Assembly: GCA_018262095.1 (NCBI GenBank) | Contig: JAGTRW010000054.1 | Location: 1-50,045, forward strand | Direction of reading: 5' to 3' | Source: Pseudomonadota bacterium | Lineage (GTDB): Bacteria > Pseudomonadota > Gammaproteobacteria > Burkholderiales > Rhodocyclaceae | Length of the DNA: 50,045 nucleotides | Shown here: positions 5,998 through 44,764 of the stretch, in pieces | How positions within the stretch are numbered: the stretch's first letter is position 1 | How the letters are laid out: every line of letters starts with the position of its first letter | Program-made: the position numbers and the translations under genes | The notes under the pieces: model-generated | What the model was told of the DNA's origin: nothing | What the model saw: the letters and a program-made list of their open reading frames with translations, nothing else | The model's database searches: none

Positions 5998-6315
5998 TTT
6001 GATTTCCTTTAGCTTGAATTGAACTGCGTGACAGGAAAGCAGGTGTTTCGCCGGCATCCGAACGGCAGGCTCGGCTAGGCTGCGCCTTGAATTCCGGCAT
6101 GCAGCTTAGGTCGCAGCGCGCCGCCGCACGGTGCGCCAGCACACAGAGCAGCCTATTTCAGCAGAGCGGCCTGGCGAGGGGGCGCGCTATGTTGGCCAGC
6201 GCACCGACGTCGGGTGCGACGTTGCCGCATAGTGCGGCCGAGCGTGAATCTGTGTCGCTAAGCCCTCCCAACCTCCCCTTGTCAGGGGCGGCGAATCCTC
6301 TGACGAAAGCCTCTC
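5998..6315. other. Divergent promoter region, 318 bp
   Basis: This region separates the SYLF gene (minus) from the phospholipase gene (plus). I see no gene in it. It contains one copy of the recurring palindromic element at 6190-6206, oriented toward the phospholipase gene, followed by a CGTCG/CGACG inverted repeat. Confidence 0.6.
6190..6206 (+). promoter_or_regulatory. Recurring palindromic element, copy upstream of pldA
   Basis: The sequence TGTTGGCCAGCGCACCG matches the shared element at 109 bp before the phospholipase start. The flanks CGCTA on the left and ACG on the right are also shared with the copy at 44748, so the match extends beyond the palindrome. Confidence 0.55.
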
Positions 6316-7383
6316 ATGCCGTACGTTTCCGGGAACCTGTCCGCCGCGCTTCTCCTTGCCGCAGTGCTGCCGACGCTGGCCATCGGCCAGGACGTGAGCT
6401 GCGCGGCGATCGCCAGCAACGCCGAGCGCTTGGCCTGTTACGATCGCGCCTCGCTGCTCGCCATCACGGCACCAGCGACGGTCGACGACGTCAAAGCGCC
6501 GGCCGAGCGCGGCTTGAAGGACCGCCTGGCGACCTTCAATTCAGGTGAGAACGACCGCCTGCGCAGCCACGGGTCGGCGCTGACCGACCAGTGGGAACTC
6601 GATGCGCCGAGCCAGCGCGGCGTTTTCGTGCTGCGTCCGTACAAGCCGATTTACCTCCTGCCGCTGAGTTACACCAACAACGTCAATCAGTCGCCGTCCT
6701 CTGCGGCGATCGGCCACGGTGGCGCTGAACAAGGCAATCTGGACGCCGTCGAGGCCCGGGTCCAGTTCAGCCTGAAGACCAAGGCGCTCGAGAATCTGTT
6801 CGGCGACAACGGCGATCTGTGGCTCGGCTATACCCAGTCGTCGCGCTGGCAGGCATATAACAGCGATCTTTCGCGGCCTTTCCGCGAGACCGATTACGAG
6901 CCCGAAGCGATGCTCGCCTTCCACACCAACTACGAGTTCCTCGGCTTCAAGGGCTCTTTGGCGAGCATCGGCGTCAATCACCAGTCCAACGGTCGCGCGC
7001 TGCCGCTCTCGCGCAGCTGGAATCGGGTGATCGCCCAGGCCGGCTTTGAAAAGGACGACTGGATGGTGCTCGTTCGCCCGTGGTGGCGGATACCCGAGAG
7101 CGAGAGTTCAGACGACAATCCGGGAATCGAGAACTATATCGGCCGCGGCGAGCTGATCGTCGCGCGCCAGTGGCAGGGGCAAGTGTTTTCGTTACAGGCG
7201 CGCCACAGCCTGCGCGGTGGCGAAAATTCGCGCGGTTCGGCGCAATTGGCTTGGTCGTTCCCGATCGCCGGCGACCTCAAGGGTTACGTTCAGGTGTTTT
7301 CGGGTTATGGCGAAAGCCTGATCGATTACAACCACCGGCAAACCGTGATCGGCGTCGGGGTCTCGGTGTTCGACTGGTATTAG
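6316..7383 (+). CDS. pldA: Outer-membrane phospholipase A (OMPLA)
   Basis: This 355-residue protein has a signal peptide (about 1-24), a short domain with C29 and a RLACYDRA motif, and then a beta-barrel OMPLA domain from about residue 100. OMPLA hydrolyses phospholipids that reach the outer leaflet of the outer membrane, as a Ca2+-dependent dimer. The catalytic triad is visible: H222 and S224 in NHQSNGR and N236 in SRSWNR. The C-terminus ends in aromatic VFDWY, as expected of an outer-membrane barrel. The N-terminal RLACYD segment is an addition to the barrel. It stands alone, behind a copy of the recurring palindromic element. Confidence 0.93.
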   Translation: MPYVSGNLSAALLLAAVLPTLAIGQDVSCAAIASNAERLACYDRASLLAITAPATVDDVKAPAERGLKDRLATFNSGENDRLRSHGSALTDQWELDAPSQRGVFVLRPYKPIYLLPLSYTNNVNQSPSSAAIGHGGAEQGNLDAVEARVQFSLKTKALENLFGDNGDLWLGYTQSSRWQAYNSDLSRPFRETDYEPEAMLAFHTNYEFLGFKGSLASIGVNHQSNGRALPLSRSWNRVIAQAGFEKDDWMVLVRPWWRIPESESSDDNPGIENYIGRGELIVARQWQGQVFSLQARHSLRGGENSRGSAQLAWSFPIAGDLKGYVQVFSGYGESLIDYNHRQTVIGVGVSVFDWY

Positions 7384-7404
7384 CCGCGGCGAATAGATTC
7401 GTCC

Positions 7405-8883
7405 CTAAGGCCTGACGACGCTCTTGTTGAGCGCGGCGATAGCGGACTCGAACTTGGCGAAACGCTCGTCGAGCTGCTTGAGCAGGCGTTTTTTCTCGTT
7501 CGCCGGCAGGAACGAATAGCGCAGGCCGTTGTACGAGAGTTTCTTGACTTCGGCGTAGTCGGGCTGGTAACGGCTGGCGAAAAGGACGTATTCGTTGGTC
7601 AGCGTGTTGCGCGAGACGCCCGCATCGTCGGTCGACAGCACCAACGGCACGGCGTACTTGCGGTATAGCGTAAGCGGATGCGATTGCCCCTTGACGCCGA
7701 GGATGAAGTCATTGCTGGTGAGGTTGATTTCGACCGGAAGGTCCTGATCGCGCATCGTTTTGATGATCGCCAGCGCGTTGGCTTCGTGCGCCAGATCGAT
7801 GCCGTGGCCGATGCGGTCGGCGCCGGCAATCGTCAGCGCCTGCTCGATATGAAATTTGAGCCCCTCGGGCGGAACCATGCCGAGCGCCAGTTCGCCTGCA
7901 TGCAGCGCGAGTTTGACCTGCGGGTATTGCGCCTTGAGGAAGCGGAACATCTTCATGTGCAGCGAGTAGTCGCGCATCGAAACGTTCTGGTTTTCAGCGC
8001 CGACGATGTTGACCCCGACGATCAGCGGGCTCGCGCTGGCGGCCTTGAAACCGGCGAGCAGCGAGGAAAAGACTTGCGACGGCGCGAGCAGGCGGACGAC
8101 GTAGGTCTGATAGCGCATGGTGAATCGCTCATCGTCGATGCCGGCGCTGCTCGCCTCGGTGCGCGCGACGTGATCGGCGATTTTCTGTTTGAAGGCCGGG
8201 TCGTTGTCCAGAGCGATCGCCTGCGAGCGGAAAATGGCGCTCAATGATTCGTCGTCGTCGCGCGCCTGCGCGACGGCCTGGTCGAAAGCATCGTTCGCTA
8301 TCGCCGGTGCCATCTTGAACATCGTTTCTATATAGCTGACGTTTTCGGCAATCGCGCGCTTCTTGATCGTCTGCAGGCCTTCGTCGAGATGCGTGCTGGA
8401 GACCGGGCCAAAATAGCCGAATGTCTCGAAGAACTGGCGGTCGGGTGGCGGCTGGAGCGCGCCGTGGTTGGCAAAATCCTTGCTCGACCAGCGCTGCAGC
8501 AGTTCGCGATAGAGCAAATCGTTGGCCACGATCTCTGCCGCTGACAGGCACTGGCGCGTCGCCGCGTCGAGTTGGCGCTGGGCGGTGATCAGTTCGGGAT
8601 CAGTCTGGATTCGGTAGCTTGTCTGGTCGATGCAAAAGCCTTGTCGTTCAACCCATTCAAGGTACTGCTCGGCGTAGATCGCTCCCGAGTAGTGGTGGTG
8701 CAGGTCGCCGCCCTTGGGCATTTGGCTGAAGAAGAGCGTCAGTTCGGCGAGCTCGACCGGGTCGGCGAGCAGTCTGGCCAAGTGGCGTGCGGTCAGTGTT
8801 TGATTGGTCGGCGGTGCAGCGTCAACGTGGGCGCCGCAGCACAGCGCGAGGATCAGCAGCAGGCGCAACAGGTAGGTTTTCAT
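7405..8883 (-). CDS. Exported adenosine deaminase family protein (ADGF-like)
   Basis: The 492-residue protein has a signal peptide (1-22, cleavage after VDA) and a metal-dependent deaminase TIM barrel. The zinc ligands and catalytic residues of the adenosine/AMP deaminase superfamily are present: H62 and H64 in LHHHYSG, H328 and E331 in HAGE, H360 in RIGHG, and D419-D420 in LSTDDAG. The extended N-terminal region and the MPKGGDLHHH context resemble the secreted ADGF/CECR1 group more than cytosolic Add. It probably deaminates adenosine or a related purine in the periplasm; the exact substrate is inferred. It is convergent with pldA, with 21 bp between stops. Confidence 0.87.
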   Translation of the reverse strand: MKTYLLRLLLILALCCGAHVDAAPPTNQTLTARHLARLLADPVELAELTLFFSQMPKGGDLHHHYSGAIYAEQYLEWVERQGFCIDQTSYRIQTDPELITAQRQLDAATRQCLSAAEIVANDLLYRELLQRWSSKDFANHGALQPPPDRQFFETFGYFGPVSSTHLDEGLQTIKKRAIAENVSYIETMFKMAPAIANDAFDQAVAQARDDDESLSAIFRSQAIALDNDPAFKQKIADHVARTEASSAGIDDERFTMRYQTYVVRLLAPSQVFSSLLAGFKAASASPLIVGVNIVGAENQNVSMRDYSLHMKMFRFLKAQYPQVKLALHAGELALGMVPPEGLKFHIEQALTIAGADRIGHGIDLAHEANALAIIKTMRDQDLPVEINLTSNDFILGVKGQSHPLTLYRKYAVPLVLSTDDAGVSRNTLTNEYVLFASRYQPDYAEVKKLSYNGLRYSFLPANEKKRLLKQLDERFAKFESAIAALNKSVVRP

Positions 8884-8931
8884 CGTACTTGTCCAAAAAA
8901 GGAGGGGGCTAGCGCGAATCGAATAGGCCGC

Positions 8932-22495: not shown

Positions 22496-22499
<4 letters not shown>

Positions 22500-22978
22500 G
22501 ATGTCTCTCCTGTGGTCTGCCGGTGCACGACGCGCTGCCTCTGCGGACGCAGATCGGCAAGGCTCATCGTGTCGACGACCGGCTCGCTCATCTGCTGCAA
22601 ACTGATCTGTTCGAGAGCTTCGAGCATGATGCGGCTGATCCGGTGCCAGTGGCTGTGAACCTGGCAGCGCAGTTCGTGGCCGCACAAGCCGGGCCCCGCG
22701 CTGCACTGTGTCATGCCGAGCGGACCGTCGATGGCGTTGATGATCTGCGCCGTCGAAATCTCGGCCGGCGGCCGCGCGAGCTTGTAGCCGCCCTTGGCGC
22801 CGCGCAGCGACTGAACGAGTCCTTGGCGGATAAATGTCTTGAGCAGCTTGCTCACCGACGGAACCGGCAAACCGGTGAGCGAAACGATCTCGGCGACGCT
22901 CTGCGTCCGCTCGGGTTCTCTCGCCATCGTCGTCAGCACGATCGTTCCATAGTCAGCCATTTTGCTAATTCTCAACAT
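22496..22978 (-). CDS. Rrf2 family regulator of the suf operon
   Basis: The 160-residue protein has an N-terminal winged helix (residues 1-80, [23 protein letters not shown] and RGAKGGYKL) and three cysteines C92, C99 and C105 that could hold a [2Fe-2S] cluster, as in IscR and related Rrf2 regulators. It is the first gene of the suf operon and its stop overlaps the sufB start, so it probably senses Fe-S status and controls its own operon. A palindrome over the predicted promoter is the likely operator. The last 35 residues are basic and variable. Confidence 0.92.
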
Positions 22979-23082: not shown

Positions 23083-23106
23083 GAACTGTTCGTCAGCGAA
23101 CAGTTC
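23083..23106 (+). promoter_or_regulatory. 24-bp perfect inverted repeat upstream of ldhA, copy of the recurring element
   Basis: GAACTGTTCG and CGAACAGTTC form 10-bp arms around TCAG. Its core at 23087-23103 (TGTTCGTCAGCGAACAG) is the most symmetric copy of the element repeated in this window. It ends 75 bp before the ldhA start. The half-site spacing (CTG-N12-CAG) differs from the LexA box (CTG-N10-CAG). Confidence 0.65.
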
Positions 23107-23181: not shown

Positions 23182-24177
23182 ATGAAAATTGCCGTATTCA
23201 GCGCCAGGCGTTACGACCGGGAGTTTCTGAGCGCCGCCAATTCCCTTGCCGGCCATCAACTCGCTTTTTTCGAGGCGCGCCTCGAGGCGCAAACCGTTGC
23301 CCTGGCCGCCGGATGCGAGGCCGTTTGTCTGTTCGTCAATGATCTCGCCGACGATGTCGTGCTCAAAGCGCTGGCCGCCGGCGGAACGCGCCTGGTGGCG
23401 CTGCGCTGCACCGGCTTCAACAACGTCGACCTGAAGGCCGCGGCAGACTGCGGGATCAAGGTCGTGCGTGTCGTGAGCTATTCGCCGTATGCGGTCGCCG
23501 AGCACGCCGTGGCGCTGTTGCAATCGATCAACCGCAAGATCCACCGCGCCTACAACCGCACGCGCGACTCGAACTTCGCGCTCGACGGGCTGCTGGGTTT
23601 TGACCTCAACGGCAAGACCGTCGCGGTCGTCGGCACCGGCAAGATTGGTCGCATCTTTACCAAGATCATGCTCGGCTTCGGCTGCGAAGTGCTCGGCTAC
23701 GATGTCTTTCACTCGCCCGAGTTCGAAGCGCTCGGTGCGCGCTATGCCGCCGCGGCGGAAATCGGCGAGCGCGCCGACATCATTTCGCTGCACTGCCCGC
23801 TGACGCCCGAAACAAAGCACATCGTCAACGCGCATACGCTCTCGCGCGTCAAGCGCGGCGCCTTGCTGATCAATACCAGTCGCGGTGCCCTGGTCGATAC
23901 CGAAGCGGTGATCGAAGCCCTGAAGAGCGGGCAACTCGGCGGGCTGGCGCTCGACGTCTATGAACAGGAGGCCGATCTTTTCTACCGCGATCTGTCGAAT
24001 ACGGTCGTTGACGACGACGTCTTGCAGCGCCTGCTGTCGTTTCCCAATGTCATTGTCACCGGCCATCAAGCGTTCTTTACGCGCGAAGCGATCAGCACCA
24101 TCTGCGAAACGACGATCGCCAGTGTCAGCGAGTTCGCCGCCGGTTTGGCGTTGTCCAACGAGATTCTGGCGCCCTGA
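23182..24177 (+). CDS. ldhA: D-lactate dehydrogenase (NAD-dependent, fermentative)
   Basis: The 331-residue enzyme belongs to the D-2-hydroxyacid dehydrogenase family and reduces pyruvate to D-lactate with NADH. The nucleotide motif GTGKIG, the NTSRGALVD segment with the substrate arginine, the glutamate in DVYEQEADLF and the histidine in GHQAFFT are all present. YEQEADLFYRDLS is typical of LdhA rather than of glycerate or phosphoglycerate dehydrogenases. I place the start at the ATG at 23182, after TTAGGAG; the frame is open 52 codons upstream but that part is not conserved in the family. It is divergent from suf. Confidence 0.94.
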   Translation: MKIAVFSARRYDREFLSAANSLAGHQLAFFEARLEAQTVALAAGCEAVCLFVNDLADDVVLKALAAGGTRLVALRCTGFNNVDLKAAADCGIKVVRVVSYSPYAVAEHAVALLQSINRKIHRAYNRTRDSNFALDGLLGFDLNGKTVAVVGTGKIGRIFTKIMLGFGCEVLGYDVFHSPEFEALGARYAAAAEIGERADIISLHCPLTPETKHIVNAHTLSRVKRGALLINTSRGALVDTEAVIEALKSGQLGGLALDVYEQEADLFYRDLSNTVVDDDVLQRLLSFPNVIVTGHQAFFTREAISTICETTIASVSEFAAGLALSNEILAP

Positions 24178-24229
24178 TCACGCCGCCACGGCGCAGCGCA
24201 GGTCGGCCAATGAACGTGGCGGTGGGCTG

Positions 24230-24246
24230 CGTGGGCTGGCGTACAG
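24230..24246 (+). promoter_or_regulatory. Recurring palindromic element, copy before the CxxC membrane protein
   Basis: CGTGGGCTGGCGTACAG lies 66 bp before the gene at 24313. With its flanks it agrees closely with the copy at 41338 (GCGT-GCTGGCG-ACAGAC). It is one of the weaker copies on the left arm. Confidence 0.4.
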
Positions 24247-24312
24247 ACCGGCAGGGGAACGCTCGCTACCTTGAGGCCTGACCGTTAACGCGACGGCGAT
24301 CAGGGGGGTACG

Positions 24313-24876
24313 ATGAATTCAGGCAGAGCCCGGCGACTGTCCGGTCGGGAAAATACCGTGCCGGACGCCGCCGGCAGCGAGCTGTCATGGCTCGGTCGCT
24401 GGCGCTGGAATGTCCTGGCTGCGCTGTTCGCCGCCTTGCTGCTGGTCGCGCTGACCTTGCGCCGCTGGCGCCGAGGCGAAGTCAGCGACGTCATCGACGT
24501 CAGCCGGCAGCGCCTCGGCATCCGGGTCGCGCTGGCGATCGTCTTTGTCTCGTCGGTGCTCACTGGCGTGCTGGCGCTTTTTCCGCTGGCCAGCGACCAG
24601 GCCAACGCCGCGCCGATGGTATCGGAAGCGGAAGCGGTGGCCTATCCGGTGCGCGAAGCGGGCAGCGATCCAAAGTGTGCGCAATGCGGCGTCGTCGAAT
24701 CGACGCGCGAGCTTGCCCGGATTGCCGAGACGTCGGCCAAGGGCGTCGAGCTTACCGTGCGCATGAAGGACGGCGCGAGCCACCTGTTCATCGCAGCGAG
24801 TTCCGAGAGCTCGGCGAGTTGGCGTGCCGGCGAGCGCGTGATCTTCATCGACGGCAGAAATCTCGCTGGCGAGTGA
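24313..24876 (+). CDS. Unknown membrane protein with periplasmic CxxC domain
   Basis: I do not recognise a named family. The 187-residue protein has two hydrophobic stretches (about 33-49 and 72-92) flanking an Arg-rich loop. A C-terminal domain of about 90 residues contains KCAQCGVVES and an ELTVRMKDGASHLF strand pattern with SWRAGERVIFI. This C-terminal pattern resembles that seen after glycine-zipper domains in other betaproteobacterial envelope proteins. The CxxC pair could form a disulfide or bind metal or haem, but a single CxxC without CH argues against c-type haem. A copy of the recurring element lies upstream. Confidence 0.7.
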   Translation: MNSGRARRLSGRENTVPDAAGSELSWLGRWRWNVLAALFAALLLVALTLRRWRRGEVSDVIDVSRQRLGIRVALAIVFVSSVLTGVLALFPLASDQANAAPMVSEAEAVAYPVREAGSDPKCAQCGVVESTRELARIAETSAKGVELTVRMKDGASHLFIAASSESSASWRAGERVIFIDGRNLAGE

Positions 24877-25116
24877 TGCCGGGGCCGGTGAAGGCCCGAG
24901 GAATACTTCGCGGCAGGGTCGAAAAAACGGCCCCGATCATTGAATCTCTTCTGTGTGCGGCAACAGACAGACCACGCAGGACTCTCTCCCTAAGCTGCAA
25001 ATGGTCGGAGCCAGGTGCGCAATCGCTACCGTGGCACAGCGTGCTGCTGCAAGGCAGAACGCTTGGCGAAGACTGGCCGTAACGCATTTCCCCATCCATT
25101 TATACAAGGAATTCTC

Positions 25117-25728
25117 ATGAACACTTTCAATATCAAAATGGTCGCTCTGGCGATCGGTTTCGCCTTCAGCGCCGGCGCCATGGCGCAGACCATCAGCAAG
25201 ACCGAGTACAAGGACAGCAAGAGCAAGATCAGCGCCGAGTACAAGAGCGCCAAGGCCAGTTGCGCCGCGCTCTCGGGCAACGCCAAGGATATCTGCGTCG
25301 AACAGGCCAAGGGCCAGGAAAAGGTCGCCAAGGCCGATCTTGAAGCAAACTACAAGCCAAGCACCAAGAGCCATTACGACGCTCGCGTCGCCAAGGCGGA
25401 TGCCGACTATGGCGTCGCCAAGGAAAAGTGCGACGACGTGGCCGGCAACGTCAAGGACGTCTGCGTCAAGGAGGCCAAGGCTGCGCAAACGGCGGCGATA
25501 GCTGACGCCAAAACGCAGAAGACGACGGTTGGCGCCAACGCGGTGGCCGCCGAAAAGACCGCCGAAGCGCGCAGCGATGCGAGCGCCAAGGGCAGCGAAG
25601 CGCGCAAGGACGCTGCGGCAGAAAAGACCGAGGCGCAGTACAAGGTCGCTCAGCAAAAGTGCGACACCTTTTCCGGTCCGACCAAGGACGAGTGTCTGAG
25701 CAAGGCCAAAGTCAGCGCCGGCAAGTAG
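25117..25728 (+). CDS. Exported Lys/Ala-rich protein with three Cys-X10-Cys repeats
   Basis: The 203-residue protein has a clear signal peptide (1-23, AMA cleavage) and a mature part rich in Ala and Lys, strongly helical. Three repeats share the plan Y-x-x-A-x-x-x-C-x5-G-x3-KD-x-C-x4-AK: cysteine pairs C49/C60, C105/C116 and C182/C193 each span exactly 11 positions. Each pair could close a disulfide across a short turn in a helical hairpin. It is probably periplasmic. I know of no assigned function. The ATG at 25117 follows AAGGAA, and a UUCG-capped terminator follows the gene. Confidence 0.8.
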   Translation: MNTFNIKMVALAIGFAFSAGAMAQTISKTEYKDSKSKISAEYKSAKASCAALSGNAKDICVEQAKGQEKVAKADLEANYKPSTKSHYDARVAKADADYGVAKEKCDDVAGNVKDVCVKEAKAAQTAAIADAKTQKTTVGANAVAAEKTAEARSDASAKGSEARKDAAAEKTEAQYKVAQQKCDTFSGPTKDECLSKAKVSAGK

Positions 25729-30081: not shown

Positions 30082-30092
30082 ACCGCTTGCTA

Positions 30093-30109
30093 TGCGCGCC
30101 AACGTACAG
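30093..30109 (+). promoter_or_regulatory. Recurring palindromic element, copy upstream of the DUF2934 gene
   Basis: TGCGCGCCAACGTACAG, preceded by CTA as in the copies at 6190 and 44748, lies 121 bp before the start at 30231. It overlaps an inverted repeat CGCCAACG/CGTTGGCG (30097-30120, 8-base loop) that could also serve as a terminator for the TerC gene. Confidence 0.4.
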
Positions 30110-30230
30110 AGCCGTTGGCGTAATTGGCTTAGTCTTTTGATCATGCCGAGGCGTTGCCCCGCTAGCGCGTCGCGATGTGCGCCGCGTTGTTGATCGCAGC
30201 TTTGCAGCAAGAACCAGACAGGAGCCAGCC

Positions 30231-30539
30231 ATGAAAACCAGGCGCAAGACGGCAAACAAGCACGAAGGCGAGATTTTCGGCGCCACCGACTTCCACCGCG
30301 AACGCGTTTCGCAGGAGCAGGCCACCGCAGCCAAGAACGAGGCGGCGAACCGTCCCCAAGGAACTTACGAATACGAGCAAATGATCGCTGAAAATGCGGT
30401 TTTCAACCCCAAGCAGATGATCGAGGATGCGGCGTTTTTCATCGCCGAAAGGCGCGATTTCGCGCCTGGATATGAGCTTGCCGACTGGCTTCAGGCCGAA
30501 GCCGAGGTCGAAACCAGGCTGGCCGCCGGCGCTGCCTAG
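30231..30539 (+). CDS. DUF2934 domain protein
   Basis: The 102-residue cytosolic protein ends in a DUF2934 domain (about residues 60-95) with the typical IAERRDFAPGYELADWLQAE motif. The N-terminal part is basic and disordered. The function of DUF2934 is unknown; it is common in betaproteobacterial and cyanobacterial small proteins. The ATG at 30231 follows ACAGGAG. A copy of the recurring element lies upstream. Confidence 0.88.
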   Translation: MKTRRKTANKHEGEIFGATDFHRERVSQEQATAAKNEAANRPQGTYEYEQMIAENAVFNPKQMIEDAAFFIAERRDFAPGYELADWLQAEAEVETRLAAGAA

Positions 30540-32903: not shown

Positions 32904-33326
32904 TCAGTTCGATTTTTGCACCAGCCGGTTGTCGACTTCCCTGACGCCTGATACCGCCGCCGCCAGACCCTTGGCGCGTTGGCTGTTGGCCGGCGTATCG
33001 ACCGATCCACTGAGCGTGACGACGCCTTTGATCGTATCGACGCTGATTTGCAGCGTCTTCAGACCCGGTTCGGCAAAGACCGCCGCCTTGACCTTGGCCG
33101 TGATCTCGGCGTCGTCAATCGCCGCGCCGGTCTTGGCGCTTTGTTCGTCCAATTTGTTGCCGATCTTGTCGACCGTCTCGCCGATCTTGTTGCCGGTGTC
33201 GGTCGCGCTCTGGTCGATCTTCTTGCCGGCGCTCTCTGCCGGACCCGGCTTGCTGTCGCAGGCGGCGACGCCGGCGATGAGCAGCAGGGCGATGCCGATC
33301 AATTTTAAACTTTTCAGGATTTTCAT
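32904..33326 (-). CDS. BON domain lipoprotein
   Basis: The 140-residue protein has a lipoprotein signal with C23 (GVAAC), a charged helical linker (25-68) and a BON domain (about 70-138; ITAKVKAAVFAEPGLKTL and GVVTLSGSVDT). BON domains bind phospholipid and occur in OsmY and other stress proteins. It would be anchored in the periplasm. A copy of the recurring element lies 157 bp upstream in the same orientation, and a similar BON lipoprotein at 44903 has a nearly identical copy, which suggests co-regulation. Confidence 0.9.
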   Translation of the reverse strand: MKILKSLKLIGIALLLIAGVAACDSKPGPAESAGKKIDQSATDTGNKIGETVDKIGNKLDEQSAKTGAAIDDAEITAKVKAAVFAEPGLKTLQISVDTIKGVVTLSGSVDTPANSQRAKGLAAAVSGVREVDNRLVQKSN

Positions 33327-33483
33327 TTTGCAGTCCTTTCCAGACCTGTTTCTCGCGCCAAAAGACTTCGCCTCATTTGTGGCGGATCAAATGAAACCGT
33401 TGCGCTGATGCGTCGTGCCCTGCGCTACCGCCGACCAGGGCAAGCCCCGGCACTTCAACTATCGCCGGAACGCCGGCGAAAGT

Positions 33484-33500
33484 CGGTGCGCTGTCGAACA
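33484..33500 (-). promoter_or_regulatory. Recurring palindromic element, copy upstream of a BON lipoprotein
   Basis: On the minus strand this reads TGTTCGACAGCGCACCG, differing at one base from the copy at 44748 before the other BON gene. In both cases a second GC-rich inverted repeat and a short ATAG or CTAT motif follow within 30 bp downstream. Confidence 0.6.
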
Positions 33501-33585
33501 CAGGCGCAGGCTGGCGGCCAGGCTGACGAATGTCGCTGACGCGATGCGACCACGGTCGATGTCAGGGATTGCGTCGCCGTTTCCC

Positions 33586-34110
33586 TTAGTCGAATTTCGA
33601 TTTCGAGCGGCACGCGGCGGACGTCAAGTCAATCGCTTTGGCCAGCCGATTTCTGGAAAGCTCGTCGCCGATTCCGAAGATCAATCGTGCAATGCTGTGC
33701 GCTGGCTCGACCAGCAGTCCGCCTTCAACCGAGAGCATGTGAAAAAATACAAATTGAATTTGATGGCCACGCAGAATGCTCAGCGTGCCATCGCCGACTT
33801 GTGATTTTTCGACAACGGACCAGTCGATATCGATCTTTGTGCCGTTCTTCAAGGTGATTCCGGAATGGCAGACAAGATCCCGGTATTGATCAACGAGAAA
33901 ACTCTCGTAGCCAAGAATTTCTCCGCTTCGGCTTCTCGTCTCATAGATGGCAGTCACGCCATTGCTTTCGACCAGCGCTGCGAAATACTGGTGGGCGTCG
34001 CGAATCGTCGGCGCGGCGGGGTAGGTGTCAGCCGCAGAGGCATTCAGGCAGGCGAACAGTACGCCGAGCACGGCGAGTCGATAGCTCGATGAGCTTTGTT
34101 TTCCGGTCAT
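33586..34110 (-). CDS. Unknown exported protein
   Basis: I do not recognise a family. The 174-residue protein has a signal peptide (about 1-28, LAVLGVLFACLNASA) and a mature domain of about 145 residues with two or three cysteines. It has the pattern ESNGVTAIYETRSRSGEILG, then DWSVVEKSQVGDG and IQFVFFHM. It is probably periplasmic. The ATG at 34110 has GGGACC upstream. It stands between the BON gene on the same strand and the divergent small membrane protein gene. Confidence 0.68.
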   Translation of the reverse strand: MTGKQSSSSYRLAVLGVLFACLNASAADTYPAAPTIRDAHQYFAALVESNGVTAIYETRSRSGEILGYESFLVDQYRDLVCHSGITLKNGTKIDIDWSVVEKSQVGDGTLSILRGHQIQFVFFHMLSVEGGLLVEPAHSIARLIFGIGDELSRNRLAKAIDLTSAACRSKSKFD

Positions 34111-34219
34111 TGGCGGGTCCCGTCCAATTATTCGATGGCAGCGCCAGGGGCTAGGTTTTCCACCGTTCCATCCCGCAGGCTGCGCTATCACGAGACTGGG
34201 GCGTCGGCGAGCGAGCGTC

Positions 34220-34236
34220 TGTTCGCTGCCGAACGA
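34220..34236 (+). promoter_or_regulatory. Recurring palindromic element, distal copy before the lmo0937-type gene
   Basis: TGTTCGCTGCCGAACGA is a less perfect copy, 62 bp upstream of the better copy at 34282. It shares the left flank GCGTC with the copy at 41301. Confidence 0.35.
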
Positions 34237-34281
34237 AGCGAGCTGACCGCCTTGTCCGGGCGGCATCAGGCGCTGCGCCTA

Positions 34282-34298
34282 TGTGCGTCGGCGCACAG
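34282..34298 (+). promoter_or_regulatory. Recurring palindromic element, proximal copy before the lmo0937-type gene
   Basis: TGTGCGTCGGCGCACAG has perfect 6-bp arms (TGTGCG/CGCACA) around TCGG and ends 103 bp before the start at 34402. The left flank CGCCTA is shared with other copies. Confidence 0.6.
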
Positions 34299-34401
34299 AA
34301 TCCGCACGCTGGCTGGGCGACCATGGTGCTCTGTCGCTCCCCAGCGCAGGCCAAGCAGCAAGTGCTGCGGCGTGCCTGAATCAACTCGAAAGGAATTGGC
34401 C

Positions 34402-34545
34402 ATGCTTTACACCGTCGCCGTCGTTCTCGTCATCCTCTGGCTCCTGGGCCTGATGACCTCCTACACCCTGGGTGGGCTGATCCATATTCTGCTGGTCATC
34501 GCGCTCATCTCGATCCTGCTGCAGGTCATCGGCGGCCGCCGCTGA
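34402..34545 (+). CDS. lmo0937 family small membrane protein
   Basis: The 47-residue peptide has two hydrophobic helices separated by the TSYTLGG turn and ends IGGRR, as in lmo0937/DUF5670 peptides. These are tiny inner-membrane proteins of unknown role, often stress-linked. A strong ribosome site (AAAGGAA) precedes the ATG. Two copies of the recurring element lie upstream. It is easily missed because of its length. Confidence 0.85.
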   Translation: MLYTVAVVLVILWLLGLMTSYTLGGLIHILLVIALISILLQVIGGRR

Positions 34546-38549: not shown

Positions 38550-40997
38550 ATGAGTGCAAGACTGCCGGCGAATCTGATGCTCGTCGAGGACGAGCGTGTC
38601 GTCGCCTTCGACCTCAAACGGCAGCTGCAGGGCTTCGGTTACCGTGTCGACGCGGTCGTCGCCAGCGGCGAACAGGCCATCAGCCAGGTTGATGCCGCGC
38701 CGGAGCGGCCCGATCTGGTGTTGATGGACATCCATCTCGAAGGCCGGCTCGACGGCATCGAGGCGGCGACCGAGATTCGCGCCAGACACCGAATTCCGGT
38801 CGTCTTCCTGACCGCCTACGCCGAGGACGACACGCTGCGCCGCGCGCTTGCCAGCCGCCCCTTCGGCTATCTCGTCAAACCGTGCGAGGGCCGCGAATTG
38901 CACGCCACGATCCAGATGGCGCTGGCGCGGCGTGACGACGAGTTGGCCGTTGAACAAAGCGAGCAACGCCTGAAGCTGGCGCTCGCCGCCGGTTCGCTCG
39001 GGGTTCTCGAGTGGAGTCCGAGCGCCGACCGCATGCAGGGCGATGCTCACCTCGGGGCGTTGTTCGGCAACCCGTCGACGCCGCTCGACGAACCATGGGA
39101 GGCGTTCATCGCGCGGGTTTCGCCGGCCGACCGCGAGCGCGTGCACGCGGCGCTCAATCCGACCTTGGCGGGCGGCGAAACGGCCCATATCCTGTTTCGC
39201 ACGCAGGGCAACCATGTGCCGCCGCGTTATGTGGAAGCGCATGTCAAGGCCTACGGCGGCGTGCCGGCGTCCGGTCGGGTGGTCGGCATCCTGCAGGACG
39301 TGACCCTGCGACACGACAACGATGAGCGGCTGCGCCAGTCGAGCGTCGTTTTTCAGGCGACCGCCGAGGCCATCGCGATCACCGACGCGCGCGGGCTGGT
39401 GGTCAGCGTCAACGCGGCTTTTTCGCGTATCACCGGTTACGCCGAGAGCGAAGTCGTCGGTCTCGATCCCGAGCCTTTGCTGCGTATCAGCCCGGGGCCG
39501 GAACGCTACGGCTGTTGCCGGCAGTCGGGAATGGCCGAGTTCTGGCACGGCGAAGTGCATTGCTATCGCAAGTCGGGCGAGGCTTTTCCCGCCTGGCAGA
39601 GCGTCAGCGCCGTGCGCAATGCCGGCGGCGAGCTCACCCATTTTGTCATGGCCTTTTCCGATGTGACGGCAATTTACGAGGCCCAGCAGAAACTTCACTA
39701 CCTCGCGCATCACGATTCATTGACCGGACTGCCCAACCGCCTGCTGTTCGAGGATCGGCTGCAGAACGCCATCGTCCAGGCGGCGCGCAACGAACAGCGC
39801 TGCGTGTTGCTGTTTCTCGATCTCGACGGCTTCAAGATCATCAACGACACGCTCGGCCATGCTTTCGGCGACGAATTGTTGCGCACCATCGGCGAACGGC
39901 TCAGGAGCGTGCTGCGCAGCAGCGATACGGTCGCCCGCCTCGGTGGCGACGAATTCGTGGTTCTGGCCGGCAGCACCAACCCGGATTACGCGACGCAGCT
40001 GGCGCAGAAGATTCTCAATCAATTGCGGGTGCCGATCGAGGTCGCCGGCGAACTGCTCACCGTCACCGCCAGCCTGGGCATCGCGGTGTTCCCGGACAAC
40101 GGTGCCGACAGCCAGCAACTGATGCGCGCCGCCGACATGGCGATGTACACGGCCAAGGCCGCGGGGCGCAACCGCTATCACTTCTACGCCGAGAACATGT
40201 CGGTGCAAACGCGCGAGCGGATGGATGTCGAGCAAGGCTTGCGGCGCGCCATCGAAACCGATCGGCTGGTCGTCCATTACCAGCCGCGCGTCGATCTCGA
40301 CGGGCGGCGGATCGTCGGCGTCGAAGCGCTGGTGCGCTGGCTGCATCCGGAGCGCGGCATGATTTACCCCGGCAGCTTTATCGCCGTCGCCGAGCAGAGC
40401 GACATCATCGAGCAGCTCGGGCGCTGGGTGCTGCGGCGCGCCTGCGGCGAAATGCTCGAGTCGGTCAGCGCCAGCGCCGCGCGCGGCGAGAACTTCCACG
40501 TCGCGGTCAATGTGTCGGTGCGCCAATACCTGTGCGACGATTTTGTCGCCGTCGTCAAGGCGGTTCTCGACGAGACCGGTTTCCCGGCCGCCGCGCTTGA
40601 ACTCGAAATCACCGAAAGCGTGCTGCAGACGACCGAACGCAGCCTCTTCGTGCTCAAGGCGCTCGACGACATCGGCGTCGCCGTCAGCATCGACGATTTC
40701 GGCACCGGCTATTCGTCGCTGAGCGTGCTGCGCGACCTGCCGATCAAACGCATCAAGATCGATCGCTCGTTCATCGTCGATCTGCCGGCAAGCGAGAGCC
40801 AGCGCGCGGTGGTCGAGGCGATCGTGACCTTGAGCCGAGCCATGCACATGTCGATCACCGTCGAAGGCATCGAGCGCGCCGAACAGGCCGACGTGCTGCA
40901 GCAACTCGGCTGCCAGGAGGGGCAGGGCTATTTCTTCGCCCAACCGTTGCCCCTGGCCGCGCTGCTGCAACAGGTCGGTGCCTCGGCGAGCCGCTAG
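38550..40997 (+). CDS. Response regulator with PAS, GGDEF and EAL domains (c-di-GMP turnover)
   Basis: The 815-residue protein has a receiver (1-120; phospho-acceptor D60 in LMDIHLEG), one or two PAS domains (about 135-375), a GGDEF domain with intact GGDEF at 465-469 and an EAL domain with E592-A593-L594. Both c-di-GMP synthesis and breakdown motifs are kept, so it may be bifunctional; motif presence alone does not prove activity. The kinase upstream is its likely partner. I use the ATG at 38550 with GGAG 5 bp before it; an in-frame GTG at 38544 is less likely. It overlaps the convergent DUF3309 gene by 4 bp. Confidence 0.94.
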   Translation: MSARLPANLMLVEDERVVAFDLKRQLQGFGYRVDAVVASGEQAISQVDAAPERPDLVLMDIHLEGRLDGIEAATEIRARHRIPVVFLTAYAEDDTLRRALASRPFGYLVKPCEGRELHATIQMALARRDDELAVEQSEQRLKLALAAGSLGVLEWSPSADRMQGDAHLGALFGNPSTPLDEPWEAFIARVSPADRERVHAALNPTLAGGETAHILFRTQGNHVPPRYVEAHVKAYGGVPASGRVVGILQDVTLRHDNDERLRQSSVVFQATAEAIAITDARGLVVSVNAAFSRITGYAESEVVGLDPEPLLRISPGPERYGCCRQSGMAEFWHGEVHCYRKSGEAFPAWQSVSAVRNAGGELTHFVMAFSDVTAIYEAQQKLHYLAHHDSLTGLPNRLLFEDRLQNAIVQAARNEQRCVLLFLDLDGFKIINDTLGHAFGDELLRTIGERLRSVLRSSDTVARLGGDEFVVLAGSTNPDYATQLAQKILNQLRVPIEVAGELLTVTASLGIAVFPDNGADSQQLMRAADMAMYTAKAAGRNRYHFYAENMSVQTRERMDVEQGLRRAIETDRLVVHYQPRVDLDGRRIVGVEALVRWLHPERGMIYPGSFIAVAEQSDIIEQLGRWVLRRACGEMLESVSASAARGENFHVAVNVSVRQYLCDDFVAVVKAVLDETGFPAAALELEITESVLQTTERSLFVLKALDDIGVAVSIDDFGTGYSSLSVLRDLPIKRIKIDRSFIVDLPASESQRAVVEAIVTLSRAMHMSITVEGIERAEQADVLQQLGCQEGQGYFFAQPLPLAALLQQVGASASR

Positions 40998-41152
40998 ATC
41001 CTGCCCAGCAGCAACAAAATGAGCAGGATGACCAGCACCAGTCCGATGCCGCCGCTCGGGCCGTAACCCCAGCTGCGGCTGTGCGGCCAGCTGGGAATGG
41101 CGCCGATCAGCATCAACACCACGACGATCAGCAGAATTGTTCCTAATGACAT
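40994..41152 (-). CDS. DUF3309 small membrane protein
   Basis: A 52-residue peptide reads MSLGTILLIVVV, a polar PSWPHSRSWGYGPSGG loop and a second hydrophobic LVLVILLILLLLGRI helix, the DUF3309 layout. A strong ribosome site (AAGGAGA) precedes the ATG. The function is unknown; such peptides often sit beside stress genes. It is convergent with the GGDEF-EAL gene, overlapping its end by 4 bp, and shares its upstream region with the divergent DUF883 gene. Confidence 0.85.
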   Translation of the reverse strand: MSLGTILLIVVVLMLIGAIPSWPHSRSWGYGPSGGIGLVLVILLILLLLGRI

Positions 41153-41300
41153 TTGAGATCTCCTTGCGGTAAGCGCTAACCAAAGGGCAATGCCCTCTTG
41201 GCGGCGGTGTTTCAGTTCGGCGCGTACGGCGGCCTGCCTTGGTTGCGCTGGCTATCGTCGACACCTTGCCGCCAGCTTGCCGGTGGCAAGACGGCGCGTC

Positions 41301-41317
41301 TGTACGACAGCGCACAG
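41301..41317 (+). promoter_or_regulatory. Recurring palindromic element, distal copy before DUF883
   Basis: TGTACGACAGCGCACAG lies 163 bp before the DUF883 start. It is followed by CCAGC-CC-GCTGG, a second inverted repeat, as at 44748. Confidence 0.6.
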
Positions 41318-41337
41318 TGTCCAGCCCGCTGGTCGTG

Positions 41338-41354
41338 CGTTCGCTGGCGCACAG
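41338..41354 (+). promoter_or_regulatory. Recurring palindromic element, proximal copy before DUF883
   Basis: CGTTCGCTGGCGCACAG lies 126 bp before the DUF883 start, 37 bp after the start of the previous copy. Confidence 0.5.
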
Positions 41355-41480
41355 ACGGCCGTTGCGCGGCGCGGCAGGATTCAACACAGAGAACCCGTCC
41401 GCTTGAGGGCGCCGTCTCATCCCCCGGGCGATGGCGCGCTTGAGCGCTGACCCCGTCTTTCACCTGTCACAGGAGGCATC

Positions 41481-41816
41481 ATGAGCAACGCATTTAACAG
41501 CAGTAACGTCCAGCGCAGTAAGGAAGCCCTGGTCAACGACCTCAAGGCCATCGTCGGCGACGCCGATGCGCTGCTCACGGATATCGCCAGTGCGACTTCC
41601 GAAGAGCTGGCGGTGGCGCGCCAGAGCATCGAAGCCAAGCTGGCCAACGTCAAAACGCGAATCGACGACGCCCGTCTGGTGGTCACCCGCAAAGCCTGCG
41701 GCGCCGCCGAAGCGACCAGCGAGTACCTCAGCGAGAACCCCTGGAAAGTGATCGGCGTGGCGTCGCTGGCCGCTCTCGTCGCCGCCTTGCTGGTCTCTCG
41801 CCGTTCGTGCAAATAG
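41481..41816 (+). CDS. DUF883 family protein (ElaB/YqjD-like)
   Basis: The 111-residue protein has an amphipathic helical N-terminal part (1-80) and one C-terminal membrane helix (about 88-107, VIGVASLAALVAALLV) preceded by SENPWK, as in ElaB/YqjD proteins. E. coli relatives are stationary-phase inner-membrane proteins that bind ribosomes. The ATG follows AGGAGG. Two copies of the recurring element lie upstream, in line with stress control. Confidence 0.92.
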   Translation: MSNAFNSSNVQRSKEALVNDLKAIVGDADALLTDIASATSEELAVARQSIEAKLANVKTRIDDARLVVTRKACGAAEATSEYLSENPWKVIGVASLAALVAALLVSRRSCK

Positions 41817-41872: not shown

Positions 41873-42151
41873 ATGATTTCCAGGCGCTTCACGCTGCTCG
41901 TTGCACCGCGCGACAACTTCGGATTTTCCGCCTGCGGGCGCGCTTGTCCGCGCTGTTCGTCGGCGCTGTTTCGCGTCGCACCGCGACTTGCCGATCTGCT
42001 GCTGGGTCTGTTCATTCCGCTCCACCGCTACCGCTGCATTTCCTTGCAGTGCAGCTGGGAAGGGAATTTGCGCGAGCAGCGACACGCTTTTTTGCCGCAG
42101 GTCATCGGCGGCAAAACGAAATGTCCCGTGTCTTCGACCAAGAGCTTCTGA
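41873..42151 (+). CDS. Small Cys-rich (zinc-ribbon-like) protein
   Basis: The 92-residue protein has CGRACPRC (three cysteines at about 21-28), a hydrophobic segment DLLLGLFIPL and then HRYRCISLQCSWEGNLRE, a pattern I have seen in small betaproteobacterial proteins with a paired-cysteine ribbon. It may bind zinc. The upstream AGAGGA suits the ATG at 41873 or a GTG one codon earlier. It is 56 bp after DUF883. Several other frames are open across this stretch, so the call rests on the ribosome site and the cysteine pattern. Confidence 0.6.
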   Translation: MISRRFTLLVAPRDNFGFSACGRACPRCSSALFRVAPRLADLLLGLFIPLHRYRCISLQCSWEGNLREQRHAFLPQVIGGKTKCPVSSTKSF

Positions 42152-42237
42152 GTTTGTCGACCGATGAATCGACCTGGACATTTTTCCCGCATCGGGCTTC
42201 CCACGCTCGCCGCTGAAGTGTCTGGGGAGCCAGGTTC

Positions 42238-44721
42238 ATGATCGATCTGCCGATTTCTGTGCTGATCGTCGAAGACGATGCTGCCGATGTGCGGCTGATC
42301 AAGGATGCCTTGGCCGGCACCGGCAGCAGCCCGTTTCTCCTCGACTGGGTGACGCATCTGTCTGCCGCGCTCGAACGCTTGGCCGGCGGCGGCATCGACG
42401 TCGTTTTGCTCGATCTGACGCTGCCCGACGCGCAGGGGATCGACGCCTTCGATCGGGTGTTTGACGCGGTGCCCGGGGCGCTGATCCTCATCCTGAGCAG
42501 CGCGAGCAACGAAGATGTCGCGCGCCAGGCCTTGCGGCGCGGCGCCCAGGACTATTTCGTCAAAGCCCATGTCGACGCCTACTGGCTACCGCGTGCGCTG
42601 CGTTACGCGATCGAGCGGCGCGACGCGCGCGACCGACTGCAGGATAGCGAGGCGCGCTTTCGCGCGATGAGCGATGCCTCGCCGCTCGGCATCTTCGTCG
42701 CCGATGCGCAAGCCAGTTGCGTCTATACCAACGCTGCTTATCACACGATCTCGGGACTCGATTTCGAACAGGCGCTCGGCAGCAACTGGATGAAAGCGAT
42801 CCACCCGGAAGACCGGCCGCGGGTTCTCGCCGAGTGGCGCGCTGCGGCGATGGGTGAGGAGCCGTTCCAGACCGAATATCGGTTCTTGCGTGACGATCGC
42901 AGCGTGGTGTGGACGCGCGTCAGCAGCGCGCCGCTGCTTTACGGCCGGCACTTCAACGGTCGCGTCAAGACGGTCGAGGACATCAGCGAGCGCAAGGCCG
43001 CCGAATTCAGGTTGCGCGCGGTCGAAGCCGCGCTGTTCGATGAGAAGGAGCGCGCCCAGGTGACGCTCAACTCGATCGGCGACGCCGTGCTGAGCACCGA
43101 CCTGCAGGGCCACTTGAGCTATATGAACGTGGTCGCCGAAGCGATGACCGGCTGGTCCTACCAGGAGGCGATGGGGCGTTCGCTGGCCGATGTCTTCCGG
43201 GTCGTCAACGGCACCACCCGGCGCACGATTGCCAATCCCGCGCTGCTCGCCATCAGCGACGACCGGACCGTCGAACTGGCCGGCGATTGCGTGCTCATCC
43301 GCCGTGACGGCGTCGAGTTCGCCATCGAGGATTCGTCGGCGCCGATCCACGACCGCGACGGTCAGGTCAGCGGCGCAGTGATCGTCTTCCACGACGTCAG
43401 CGCGTCCAAATCGATGGCGCTCAAGATGACGCACCTCGCCCAGCACGATTTTCTGACCGGCCTGCCCAACCGGGTGCTGCTCACCGAGCGGCTGACGCAG
43501 GCGATCCGCTTGGCCAGCCGGCACCGCAGGCAGGTCGCGCTGCTCTTCCTCGACCTCGATCATTTCAAGCACATCAACGACTCGCTCGGCCATGCCGTCG
43601 GCGACCGCTTGCTCGAGTCGGTGGCCAGGCGGCTGGTGTCGTGCGTGCGCGCCACCGATACCGTATGCCGCCAGGGCGGTGACGAGTTCGTGATCCTGCT
43701 CGCTGAAATCGAAAAGCCACACGACGCGGCGCAGATCGCCGAAAAGCTGCTCGCCGCTGCGGCGCTGCCGCACCTGATCGGCGAGCGCGAACTGCACGTC
43801 ACGCTGAGCATCGGTGTCAGCGTCTACCCCGACGACAGCGTCAGCTGCGACAGCGTGCTGCAGAACGCCGACACCGCGATGTATCACGCCAAATCGTGCG
43901 GGCGCAACAACTACCAGTTCTTCAAGGCCGACATGAACACGCGCGCGGTGCGCCGCCTGGCCGTCGAAAGCAGTCTGCGCCGCGCCCTGCTGAATCAAGA
44001 GTTCGTGCTGCTCTATCAGCCGCAGATCGCCATGGCGTCGGGCATTCTGACCGGCGCCGAAGCGCTGATCCGCTGGCTCGATCCAGAGCTCGGCTTGATC
44101 TCGCCGGCGCAATTCATCCCGATCGCTGAGGAATGCGGGCTGATCGTTCCGATCGGCCGCTGGGTGCTGCGCGAGGCGTGCCGCCAGGTCAAGGCCTGGC
44201 TCGCCGCGGGACTGTGCGCCGTACCGGTGGCGGTCAATGTCTCGGCGCTCGAGTTTCGCGACAAGAATTTTCTGGCCGGTCTGGCGCAGACGCTCGCGCA
44301 GACCGGGCTGGCCGCGCGTTATCTCGAAGTCGAGCTGACCGAAGGCGTCATCATGCACAACGCGCAGGCGTCGGCGTCATCGCTCGCGGCGCTCAAGGCG
44401 ATGGGCGTCAAGCTGGCGATCGACGATTTTGGCACCGGTTATTCGAGCCTGAGCTATCTGCAGCGCTTCCCGATCGACACCTTGAAGATCGACCAGTCCT
44501 TCGTGCGTGACGTCGCCACCGACGCCGACGCGGCGGCGATCGTCAGCGCCGTGATCGGCATGGGCCTGGGCCTGCGCTTGCGGGTCGTCGCCGAAGGCGT
44601 CGAAACTCGGCAGCAGGCCGACTTCCTGCTCGCCAGACAATGCGCCGAAGGGCAGGGCTATCTCTTCAACCCGCCGCTGGCGGCCGCCGATTTCGCGCGC
44701 CTGCTGGGCGGCGCACCGTAA
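42238..44721 (+). CDS. Response regulator with PAS, GGDEF and EAL domains (second copy type)
   Basis: The 827-residue protein has a receiver (1-120; D59 in VVLLDLTLP), PAS domains (about 135-260 and 270-395), GGDEF intact at 480-484 (QGGDEFVI) and EAL intact starting at E608 (GAEALIRWL). It could make or degrade c-di-GMP. It has the same architecture as the protein at 38550 but only moderate sequence similarity. No kinase gene is adjacent, so it may share the kinase at 37420 or the hybrid kinase at 27159. Confidence 0.94.
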   Translation: MIDLPISVLIVEDDAADVRLIKDALAGTGSSPFLLDWVTHLSAALERLAGGGIDVVLLDLTLPDAQGIDAFDRVFDAVPGALILILSSASNEDVARQALRRGAQDYFVKAHVDAYWLPRALRYAIERRDARDRLQDSEARFRAMSDASPLGIFVADAQASCVYTNAAYHTISGLDFEQALGSNWMKAIHPEDRPRVLAEWRAAAMGEEPFQTEYRFLRDDRSVVWTRVSSAPLLYGRHFNGRVKTVEDISERKAAEFRLRAVEAALFDEKERAQVTLNSIGDAVLSTDLQGHLSYMNVVAEAMTGWSYQEAMGRSLADVFRVVNGTTRRTIANPALLAISDDRTVELAGDCVLIRRDGVEFAIEDSSAPIHDRDGQVSGAVIVFHDVSASKSMALKMTHLAQHDFLTGLPNRVLLTERLTQAIRLASRHRRQVALLFLDLDHFKHINDSLGHAVGDRLLESVARRLVSCVRATDTVCRQGGDEFVILLAEIEKPHDAAQIAEKLLAAAALPHLIGERELHVTLSIGVSVYPDDSVSCDSVLQNADTAMYHAKSCGRNNYQFFKADMNTRAVRRLAVESSLRRALLNQEFVLLYQPQIAMASGILTGAEALIRWLDPELGLISPAQFIPIAEECGLIVPIGRWVLREACRQVKAWLAAGLCAVPVAVNVSALEFRDKNFLAGLAQTLAQTGLAARYLEVELTEGVIMHNAQASASSLAALKAMGVKLAIDDFGTGYSSLSYLQRFPIDTLKIDQSFVRDVATDADAAAIVSAVIGMGLGLRLRVVAEGVETRQQADFLLARQCAEGQGYLFNPPLAAADFARLLGGAP

Positions 44722-44747
44722 GCGGGTTGGCCGCCGCCGCTACGCTA

Positions 44748-44764
44748 TGTGCGACAGCGCACCG
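44748..44764 (+). promoter_or_regulatory. Recurring palindromic element, copy upstream of a BON lipoprotein
   Basis: TGTGCGACAGCGCACCG lies 138 bp before the start at 44903. It is followed by CCAGC-GCC-GCTGG and GCTGGCTATCGT (44779-44790), the latter identical to 41247-41258. The flanks CGCTA and ACG match those of the copy at 6190. Confidence 0.6.

Follow-up and report, generated by a model that had tools for sequence, protein, structure and literature searches.

Predicted Crp/Fnr-type operators with class II promoter spacing upstream of envelope and stress genes in a Rhodocyclaceae genome

The DNA analysed here is a stretch of 50,045 nucleotides (the window, contig JAGTRW010000054.1 of assembly GCA_018262095.1, called C42 below) from the 4.8-Mb draft genome of a Rhodocyclaceae bacterium. 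The window carries a Ysc84-type gene, pldA, an Rrf2-type gene of a suf operon, ldhA, zwf, and genes for a CxxC membrane protein, a DUF2934 protein, two BON lipoproteins, an lmo0937-type peptide, a DUF3309 peptide and a DUF883 protein. A palindromic element recurs in the intergenic DNA between such genes. An earlier note on this DNA had described ten copies of it as a candidate unrecognised regulon and proposed that either a single dimeric regulator or promoters of a special class lie behind them.

Is the recurrence real? The pattern of the earlier note, with up to three mismatches, matches the window at 30 places against 8.3 expected, and 0 of 100 shuffled sequences reach 30. A symmetric matrix was trained on 80 loci from other genomes, two of which (L110 and L172) are from the window's own genus. 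This genus is Propionivibrio as that collection defines it, since two of its members, G018 and G009, match contigs of Propionivibrio sp. Bin178 and Propionivibrio limicola without a difference over the stretches compared. At a score of at least 8, this matrix finds 12 sites in the window, against a mean of 0.28 and a maximum of 2 in 100 first-order Markov sequences; at a score of at least 10 it finds 10 (mean 0.11, maximum 1), and at a score of at least 12 it finds 8. The 10 sites scoring at least 10 are precisely the copies that had been claimed, and two weaker ones (6128-6147 and 24952-24971) are additional. All 12 are intergenic in a window with 6.6 kb of intergenic DNA in 50 kb. The recurring palindromic element was thereby confirmed to be real. 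The copies had been placed outside genes at 65-165 bp from a start codon; the extragenic placement held, and the distance measured from the site centre is 75-166 bp (172 bp if site 41299 is assigned to the DUF883 gene). Sites are named by their first position throughout.

The predicted operator, TNTGTRCG-N4-CGYACANA, is palindromic over 20 bp and spaced as Crp sites are, and its middle favours C-T-A-G in the 80 training loci. Crp/Fnr-type operators have the dyad spacing TGTnn-N6-nnACA, and the perfect core TGTNCG-N4-CGNACA, which has this spacing, was found 48 times, never in a gene. The centre of the palindrome is symmetric across genera. The assertion that the orientation of the copies is kept was not borne out, since the strand resembling NCAG points toward the target in 6 of the 10 sites with an assigned target and away from it in 4 (6128, 24228, 41299 and 41336). 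An early search pattern with an NCRG centre was misleading, as 18 of 30 fetched loci lay inside genes; therefore, symmetric forms were used instead. Several known boxes were also considered. The LexA box of Escherichia coli is CTGT-N8-ACAG, the lux box is CTG-N10-CAG within 20 bp, and the FNR/DNR box is TTGAT-N4-ATCAA. A classical LexA box had already been excluded in the earlier note, correctly so, because the element has CTGT-N10-ACAG with a conserved CG inside. A LuxR-type lux box was rejected because the element has CTG-N12-CAG, and an FNR/DNR box because the site sequence differs and TTGAT-N4-ATCAA is not among the listed over-represented dyads. As a separate observation, nine copies of TGTGCGGCAGCGAACMG in genome G049 (C1:473773-477209) are spaced by multiples of 60 bp and look like a tandem repeat, not a regulon.

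At class II promoters, CRP and FNR are centred at -41.5, and the -10 hexamer starts 29.5 bp downstream of that centre. I analysed the 82 training sites that have a single possible target direction. TANNNT starts at offset 29 from the centre in 27 of them and in at most 3 at any other offset from 10 to 79; 61 of the 82 have A at -11, and 59 have T at -7. In the held-out sites described below, the A/T pair of the -10 stands at the expected offset in 22 of 31, and in at most 4 at other offsets. A -10 matrix was then applied to the window sites, with 4100 shifted controls for comparison: 11 of the 12 (all except 6188) had a -10 in the top 1.3% in one direction, where about 0.3 of 12 would be expected by chance over the two directions. 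At site 23085, which is among the 11, the good -10 lies toward the Rrf2-type gene and not toward ldhA. The fixed distance between palindrome and -10 thus puts the site centre at -41.5, and by this spacing the predicted promoters have class II geometry. This also accounts for one occurrence of a flank, GCTGGCTATCGT, that had been reported as shared: at 44779 it is explained by the -10 box TATCGT (44785-44790) of site 44746. No scoring site was found at the right distance from its occurrence at 41247.

The element is linked to genes of the Crp/Fnr type (crp genes below). Among the first intergenic copies fetched from the window's genome and its relatives, such a gene adjoins three (L040, L019 and L043). 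In 20 crp neighbourhoods, a first matrix, built from sites of the window's genome and relatives, found 42 sites, 2 of them in genes. The 80 training loci (L106-L185) were picked by similarity of the Crp/Fnr protein alone, as the best 80 of 593 confirmed. I searched their intergenic DNA (289 kb) for over-represented gapped palindromes without supplying the motif, with 785 kb of coding DNA as a comparison. GTGCG-N4-CGCAC ranked first, with 26 occurrences against 0.60 expected (coding DNA, 5 against 1.94). The other leading dyads were GTACG-N4-CGTAC (14 against 0.17), TCTGT-N10-ACAGA (13 against 0.24) and TGTGC-N6-GCACA (14 against 0.47), each with 0 occurrences in coding DNA. These top four five-base dyads are all parts of one palindrome. 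Raising the threshold to 12 leaves 160 sites, spread over 63 of the 80 loci and all intergenic, a count that is descriptive because the matrix was trained on the same loci. In 33 of 79 loci, the 600 bp upstream of the crp match contain a site scoring at least 8; for other nearby genes the count is 132 of 708.

The link was also seen in a held-out set of 20 other crp regions, chosen for long contigs from 100 crp-bearing genomes; of the 40-mers sampled from them, less than 1% are shared with the training loci. Every region has at least one site scoring at least 10. Of 66 such sites, 64 fall in 104 kb of intergenic DNA and 2 in 285 kb of coding DNA, so that the density is not equal inside and outside genes; equal density was the outcome that the earlier note had named as fatal to its idea. 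In 18 control stretches (of 20 sought), taken from the same contigs at a distance of 200 kb, there are 0 sites scoring at least 10 and 1 scoring at least 8. The dyad search again ranked GTGCG-N4-CGCAC first in the held-out regions (13 against 0.22 expected), and this dyad is not among the six listed for the controls. By a rough measure of proximity, 5 of 43 strict sites lie within 2.5 kb of a crp match, among the matches listed, against 0.12 expected. Sites were found near the regulator gene in Propionivibrio, Accumulibacter, Massilia and Nitrosospira. The gene or a near relative (E<=1e-40) is held by 100 of 300 genomes of the order; 53 genomes have both the strict motif and the gene, 47 the gene only, 55 the motif only and 145 neither, and some of these strict motif matches may be chance matches inside genes.

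Two further palindromes came to light in intergenic DNA. One, TTGGGC-N12-GCCCAA, lies near the same crp genes in L106-L185 (TGGGC-N12-GCCCA, 12 against 0.33 expected). The other, approximately ATTCCCG-N6-CGGGAAT, was found in L216-L235 (TTCCC-N8-GGGAA, 7 against 0.09).

The candidate regulators form a subfamily whose recognition helix reads LGVRREG(V/I)TEA or nearly so. The window's genome has three members: a single-domain protein on contig C60 and two fusions with PAS and GGDEF domains, on C6 and C18 (L269:4680-7181 and L270:480-2705). In the single-domain protein, the Crp-type helix-turn-helix (HTH) domain PF13545 (HTH_Crp_2) was matched at 1.1e-13, with 51.4 bits against a cut-off of 27; the fusions were matched at 9e-14 and 1e-12. 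The N-terminal beta-roll domain PF00027, of the kind that binds cyclic nucleotides, is borderline, with 27.0 bits against a cut-off of 27.5 in the single-domain protein and 20.6 in the C6 fusion. An AlphaFold model of a Propionivibrio relative has a mean predicted local distance difference test score of 87. Foldseek aligned about 220 of its residues to CRP and FNR structures, and the matches include CRP (also a mycobacterial one), FNR, GlxR and NtcA, at about 16-22% identity. In the best profile alignment, the R-E of GVRREGVTEAA is paired with an R-E in a Crp/Fnr protein of solved structure, and an E stands where that protein has R. These are presumably the positions of CRP R180-E181 and of CRP R185, respectively. 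The replacement of R by E in the helix would fit an altered half-site.

No variation was seen at C138, H141, H142, C215 and C217 across 44 sequences; the motifs CNRHH and CECY occur in 44 of 44 single-domain sequences, and the two fusions have CNRYH or CTRYH. The invariant CNRHH and CECY may constitute a metal or redox sensor. The two fusions of the window's genome combine the Crp-type HTH, PAS and GGDEF in one protein, an arrangement that might tie a DNA-binding regulator directly to cyclic-di-GMP, and the GGDEF signature looks degenerate by reading (GGRIGDK). A sister Crp type, with the helix GVRRVGVTKAA in L083 and L085, is encoded beside or near the main type in G007, G009, G017 and G022 (for example, in L085 and L094). 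At C3:1173-2202 of G017, near a sister-type crp gene, two zwf fragments, one with an internal stop, appear to be a broken copy of zwf.

Taken together, I read the copies as predicted operators of a Crp/Fnr-superfamily activator with class II promoters, serving an envelope and stress regulon, with a probability of about 0.86. The single dimeric regulator proposed earlier is supported, and its class can now be named. A Crp/Fnr homodimer would bind TNTGTRCG-N4-CGYACANA centred at about -41.5. The bound dimer would recruit RNA polymerase by class II activation, at promoters with a -10 but no -35 box. The regulon would comprise genes for the envelope, for stress and for exopolysaccharide; many other species would have the regulator gene in it as well. 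Any of the three proteins of the window's genome might be the one that binds and activates here, and stress may be the signal.

Could another regulator from the same neighbourhoods bind the site instead? The sister Crp type is one candidate. It often adjoins the main type, the only crp gene found near the strong sites of G044 is a truncated one of the sister type, and clusters of sites occur where no crp gene turned up, the window being an example. I nevertheless regard such a binder as unlikely. A search at E<=1e-20 finds the sister type elsewhere (L083 at 1.4e-56, L085 at 8e-49) and finds in the window's genome, which has many sites, only the three relatives with LGVRREG(V/I)TE. Since none was found at a threshold that detects it elsewhere, the sister type is an improbable binder in this genome. 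As for other regulators, none with at least two members was recognised among the 45 listed target clusters, judged by first residues; there is one single Rrf2-like protein. The spacing and the -41.5 geometry are, moreover, those of the Crp/Fnr type.

An alternative sigma factor with a special promoter class, in which the palindrome would serve as the -35 region, is far less probable still. It would agree with the fixed distance from palindrome to -10 and with the C that precedes the -10 in 36 of the 82 training sites, a C in this position being a trait of RpoS promoters. However, a 20-bp dyad-symmetric element that spans roughly -51 to -32 has the look of an activator site, and a sigma factor would leave the link to crp genes unexplained. 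The palindrome could also pair as RNA, with a 6-bp stem and a 4-nt loop upstream of start codons, and act as a hairpin in the 5′ untranslated region of the mRNA. This idea was rejected, and I give it next to no credence, because the site is upstream of the -10: the latter starts about 29-30 bp downstream of the centre, and therefore the palindrome is not transcribed from that promoter. Besides, the fourth pair of the stem is mismatched in several copies (A/C at 41301, T/C at 33484 and 6190).

The reading of the copies as Crp/Fnr operators has to be weighed against several results that speak against it. In the window's genome, no crp gene was found on C42, no site was found upstream of the crp gene on C60 or beside the gene of the C18 fusion, and at the C6 fusion, where a site lies 89 bp before the start, the TATAGT is nearer to the site by one base than the usual spacing. 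All calls of intergenic and coding DNA come from a home-made gene caller, and the placement of the sites rests on it. Four of the first 20 crp neighbourhoods have no site. Neither do 17 of the 80 training loci at a score of at least 12, several of which are among the loci nearest to the single-domain protein of C60; they include L106, L108, L113 and L115, where Crp and the query share 80-85% identity. In all 11 loci from L106 to L116, no site lies within 600 bp upstream of crp. The shorter dyad GTGC-N6-GCAC is twofold enriched in coding DNA too (43 against 21.9). Two of the 20 held-out regions (G239 and G331) were known beforehand to hold a strict site. Across the 300 genomes, the overlap between the strict motif and the gene is only moderate (odds ratio 3.0, p 2e-5, uncorrected for kinship), and G044 has strong sites while only a truncated sister-type Crp gene was found there. 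Conservation upstream of related genes is patchy: 9 of 25 BON-family matches (two of them own) have an upstream site, and so do 2 of 9 Ysc84 genes, own included.

These homologues were picked by protein only in 40 relatives, and a site was sought within 450 bp upstream. Among near-full-length BON2 orthologues of at least 75% identity, 5 of 8 have a site (own included), or 4 of 7 without the own gene, and in all five the -10 is in place: CTATCGTG, CTATGGTG, CTATCCTG, TTACCCTG and CTATGCTA. The control gene zwf, from the same window, has a site in 1 of 25 tested, with a score of 8.2 and without a -10; one more was too short. Thus, the conservation upstream of orthologues that the earlier note had called for is seen for BON2 (5/8 against 1/25 for zwf) and is low for Ysc84. 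The two outcomes named there as refuting were each looked for in part, and neither check refuted the idea.

The 12 sites of the window are listed in Table 1. Two of the targets named earlier have become doubtful: ldhA is ambiguous, as site 23085 also faces the Rrf2/suf side, and pldA is weak, with site 6128 facing the Ysc84 gene. The targets of 34218, 41299 and 41336 were corrected to those in the table. Relatives of several targets have a site in other genomes. Orthologues of the BON lipoprotein 44903-45217 in G018, G013, G009 and G010 have an upstream site with a -10. Upstream sites were also found for relatives of ldhA in G015 (L284:6643 and 6714), the CxxC membrane protein in G022 (L038), the lmo0937-type peptide in G018 (L285:6724) and the DUF3309 peptide in G041 (L026), and the relative of gene 25117-25728 in L097 has the same odd half-site CAGACAG upstream. 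For the Rrf2-type gene at site 23085, only four relatives at 43-49% identity were found in the 40 genomes. In Pfam, the Ysc84-type protein matches PF04366; the DUF883 protein matches PF19029 above and PF05957 below the cut-off, and the CxxC membrane protein is unmatched.

Table 1. Predicted operator sites of the window, with the direction, score and -10 hexamer of each and the gene it faces (-10 percentiles are relative to shifted controls)
Site	Direction	Score	-10 hexamer	-10 percentile	Facing or flanking gene
6128-6147	-	8.1 (weak)	TAAGCT 6103-6108	top 0.1%	Ysc84-type gene 5434-5997(-)
6188-6207		11.1	no good class II -10	.42 (+),.044 (-)	between Ysc84 gene and pldA
23085-23104	ambiguous	19.5		.006 (Rrf2),.10 (ldhA)	between Rrf2-type gene 22496-22978(-) of suf operon and ldhA 23182-24177(+)
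24228-24247	+	10.5	TACCTT 24267-24272	.004	CxxC membrane protein 24313-24876
24952-24971	+	9.7	TAAGCT 24991-24996	.000	gene 25117-25728, no Pfam match
30091-30110	+	19.1	TAGTCT 30130-30135	.005	DUF2934 gene 30231-30539
33483-33502	-	16.7	GATAGT 33458-33463	.000	BON lipoprotein 32904-33326(-)
34218-34237	-	15.5	CAGTCT 34193-34198	.005	gene 33586-34110(-), no Pfam match
34280-34299	+	25.3	GACCAT 34319-34324	.003	lmo0937-type peptide (DUF5670, PF18919) 34402-34545
41299-41318	-	24.4	CAAGCT 41274-41279	.006	DUF3309 peptide 40994-41152(-), PF11752 1.7e-23
41336-41355	+	18.0	CAGGAT 41375-41380	.012	DUF883 gene 41481-41816
44746-44765	+	18.7	TATCGT 44785-44790	.000	BON lipoprotein 44903-45217

In the window's genome, the element occurs at 17 places with at most one mismatch: 7 on the window contig, 3 on the crp contig C60 and 2 on C6, about 0.1 and 4 kb from the gene of the crp fusion. 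Of the 16 examined (all but C51:89011), one, on C35, lies in a gene. On C6, further predicted targets are the gene of the Crp fused to PAS-GGDEF and one for polysaccharide export (PF02563); two more, named by reading, are a CsbD-like gene on C5 and a UDP-sugar dehydrogenase-like gene on C49. A search of the genome contigs with the DUF883 protein gave no match. In the 80 training loci, the largest target cluster by single linkage holds 34 of 174 assignments from 25 loci, and its longest member is a Crp/Fnr protein. Other clusters, whose names were read from first residues, are PAS-type (19), glycine-zipper (8), BON-like (8), an SYVSGGVG protein (6), CsbD-like (6), DUF883-like (4) and lmo0937-like (3). 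A conserved, probably secreted protein with V(S/A)YVSGGVG is encoded near crp genes and sites in L019 (C60), L087, L088 and L105.

How does this compare with known systems? The CRP site of E. coli is TGTGA-N6-TCACA. The present element is like it in having a 16-bp dyad with outer TGT and ACA, a 6-bp inner spacer and a centre at -41.5 with a -10; it differs in that the half-site is TGTRCG, not TGTGA, and no role of cyclic AMP is known here. The solved structures of GlxR, NtcA, DNR, CRP and FNR have the same fold (profile matches of 7e-9 for GlxR, 4e-8 for NtcA and 2e-5 for DNR), with only about 16-22% identity, and none of the 9 solved sequences found at E<=1e-4 is a close relative. Another point of comparison is Bcam1349 of Burkholderia cenocepacia, which I take to be of the Crp/Fnr type. 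It is described as an activator of exopolysaccharide genes that is bound by cyclic-di-GMP, and the passages covered give no motif (PMC3584217). Here, too, there are an exopolysaccharide export gene and GGDEF fusions. Work on the CRP/FNR meta-regulon (PMC8510549) includes metagenome-assembled genomes of Rhodocyclaceae and takes position weight matrices for CRP, FNR, DNR, NnrR and MalR from earlier studies; these belong to the same superfamily, and the present palindrome does not appear in the passages covered. RedB of Rhodobacter capsulatus represents a previously uncharacterised Crp/Fnr subgroup, and its motif as given in the part covered is, unlike this one, 12 bp long, non-palindromic and A-rich (PMC9603854). 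The covered part of a study on Crp/Fnr evolution (PMC12531629) contains no such motif or regulon. Matches to the string TGTRCG in the literature look, by title, like primer papers. Altogether, no such motif or regulon was found in the literature as far as it was searched and covered, and some query spellings may miss 'CRP/FNR'. I therefore judge the regulon to be new and the kind of system to be already known.

A wider proposal can be put forward only tentatively, at rather less than even odds. An unrecognised branch of Crp/Fnr proteins in Betaproteobacteria and some Gammaproteobacteria might run an envelope-stress and exopolysaccharide programme via class II promoters, with the signal sensed by the conserved cysteines and histidines, by cyclic-di-GMP, or by both; the PAS-GGDEF fusions suggest cyclic-di-GMP as a possible signal. 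On the reading of the copies as Crp/Fnr operators, an abundant Crp/Fnr subfamily, of which the literature searched gave no description, would receive its DNA motif, its promoter architecture and a set of targets. Genes known mostly by DUF and similar family names (BON, DUF883, DUF3309, DUF2934 and lmo0937-type) would be joined under one switch, and the site-by-site predictions would be testable with one protein.

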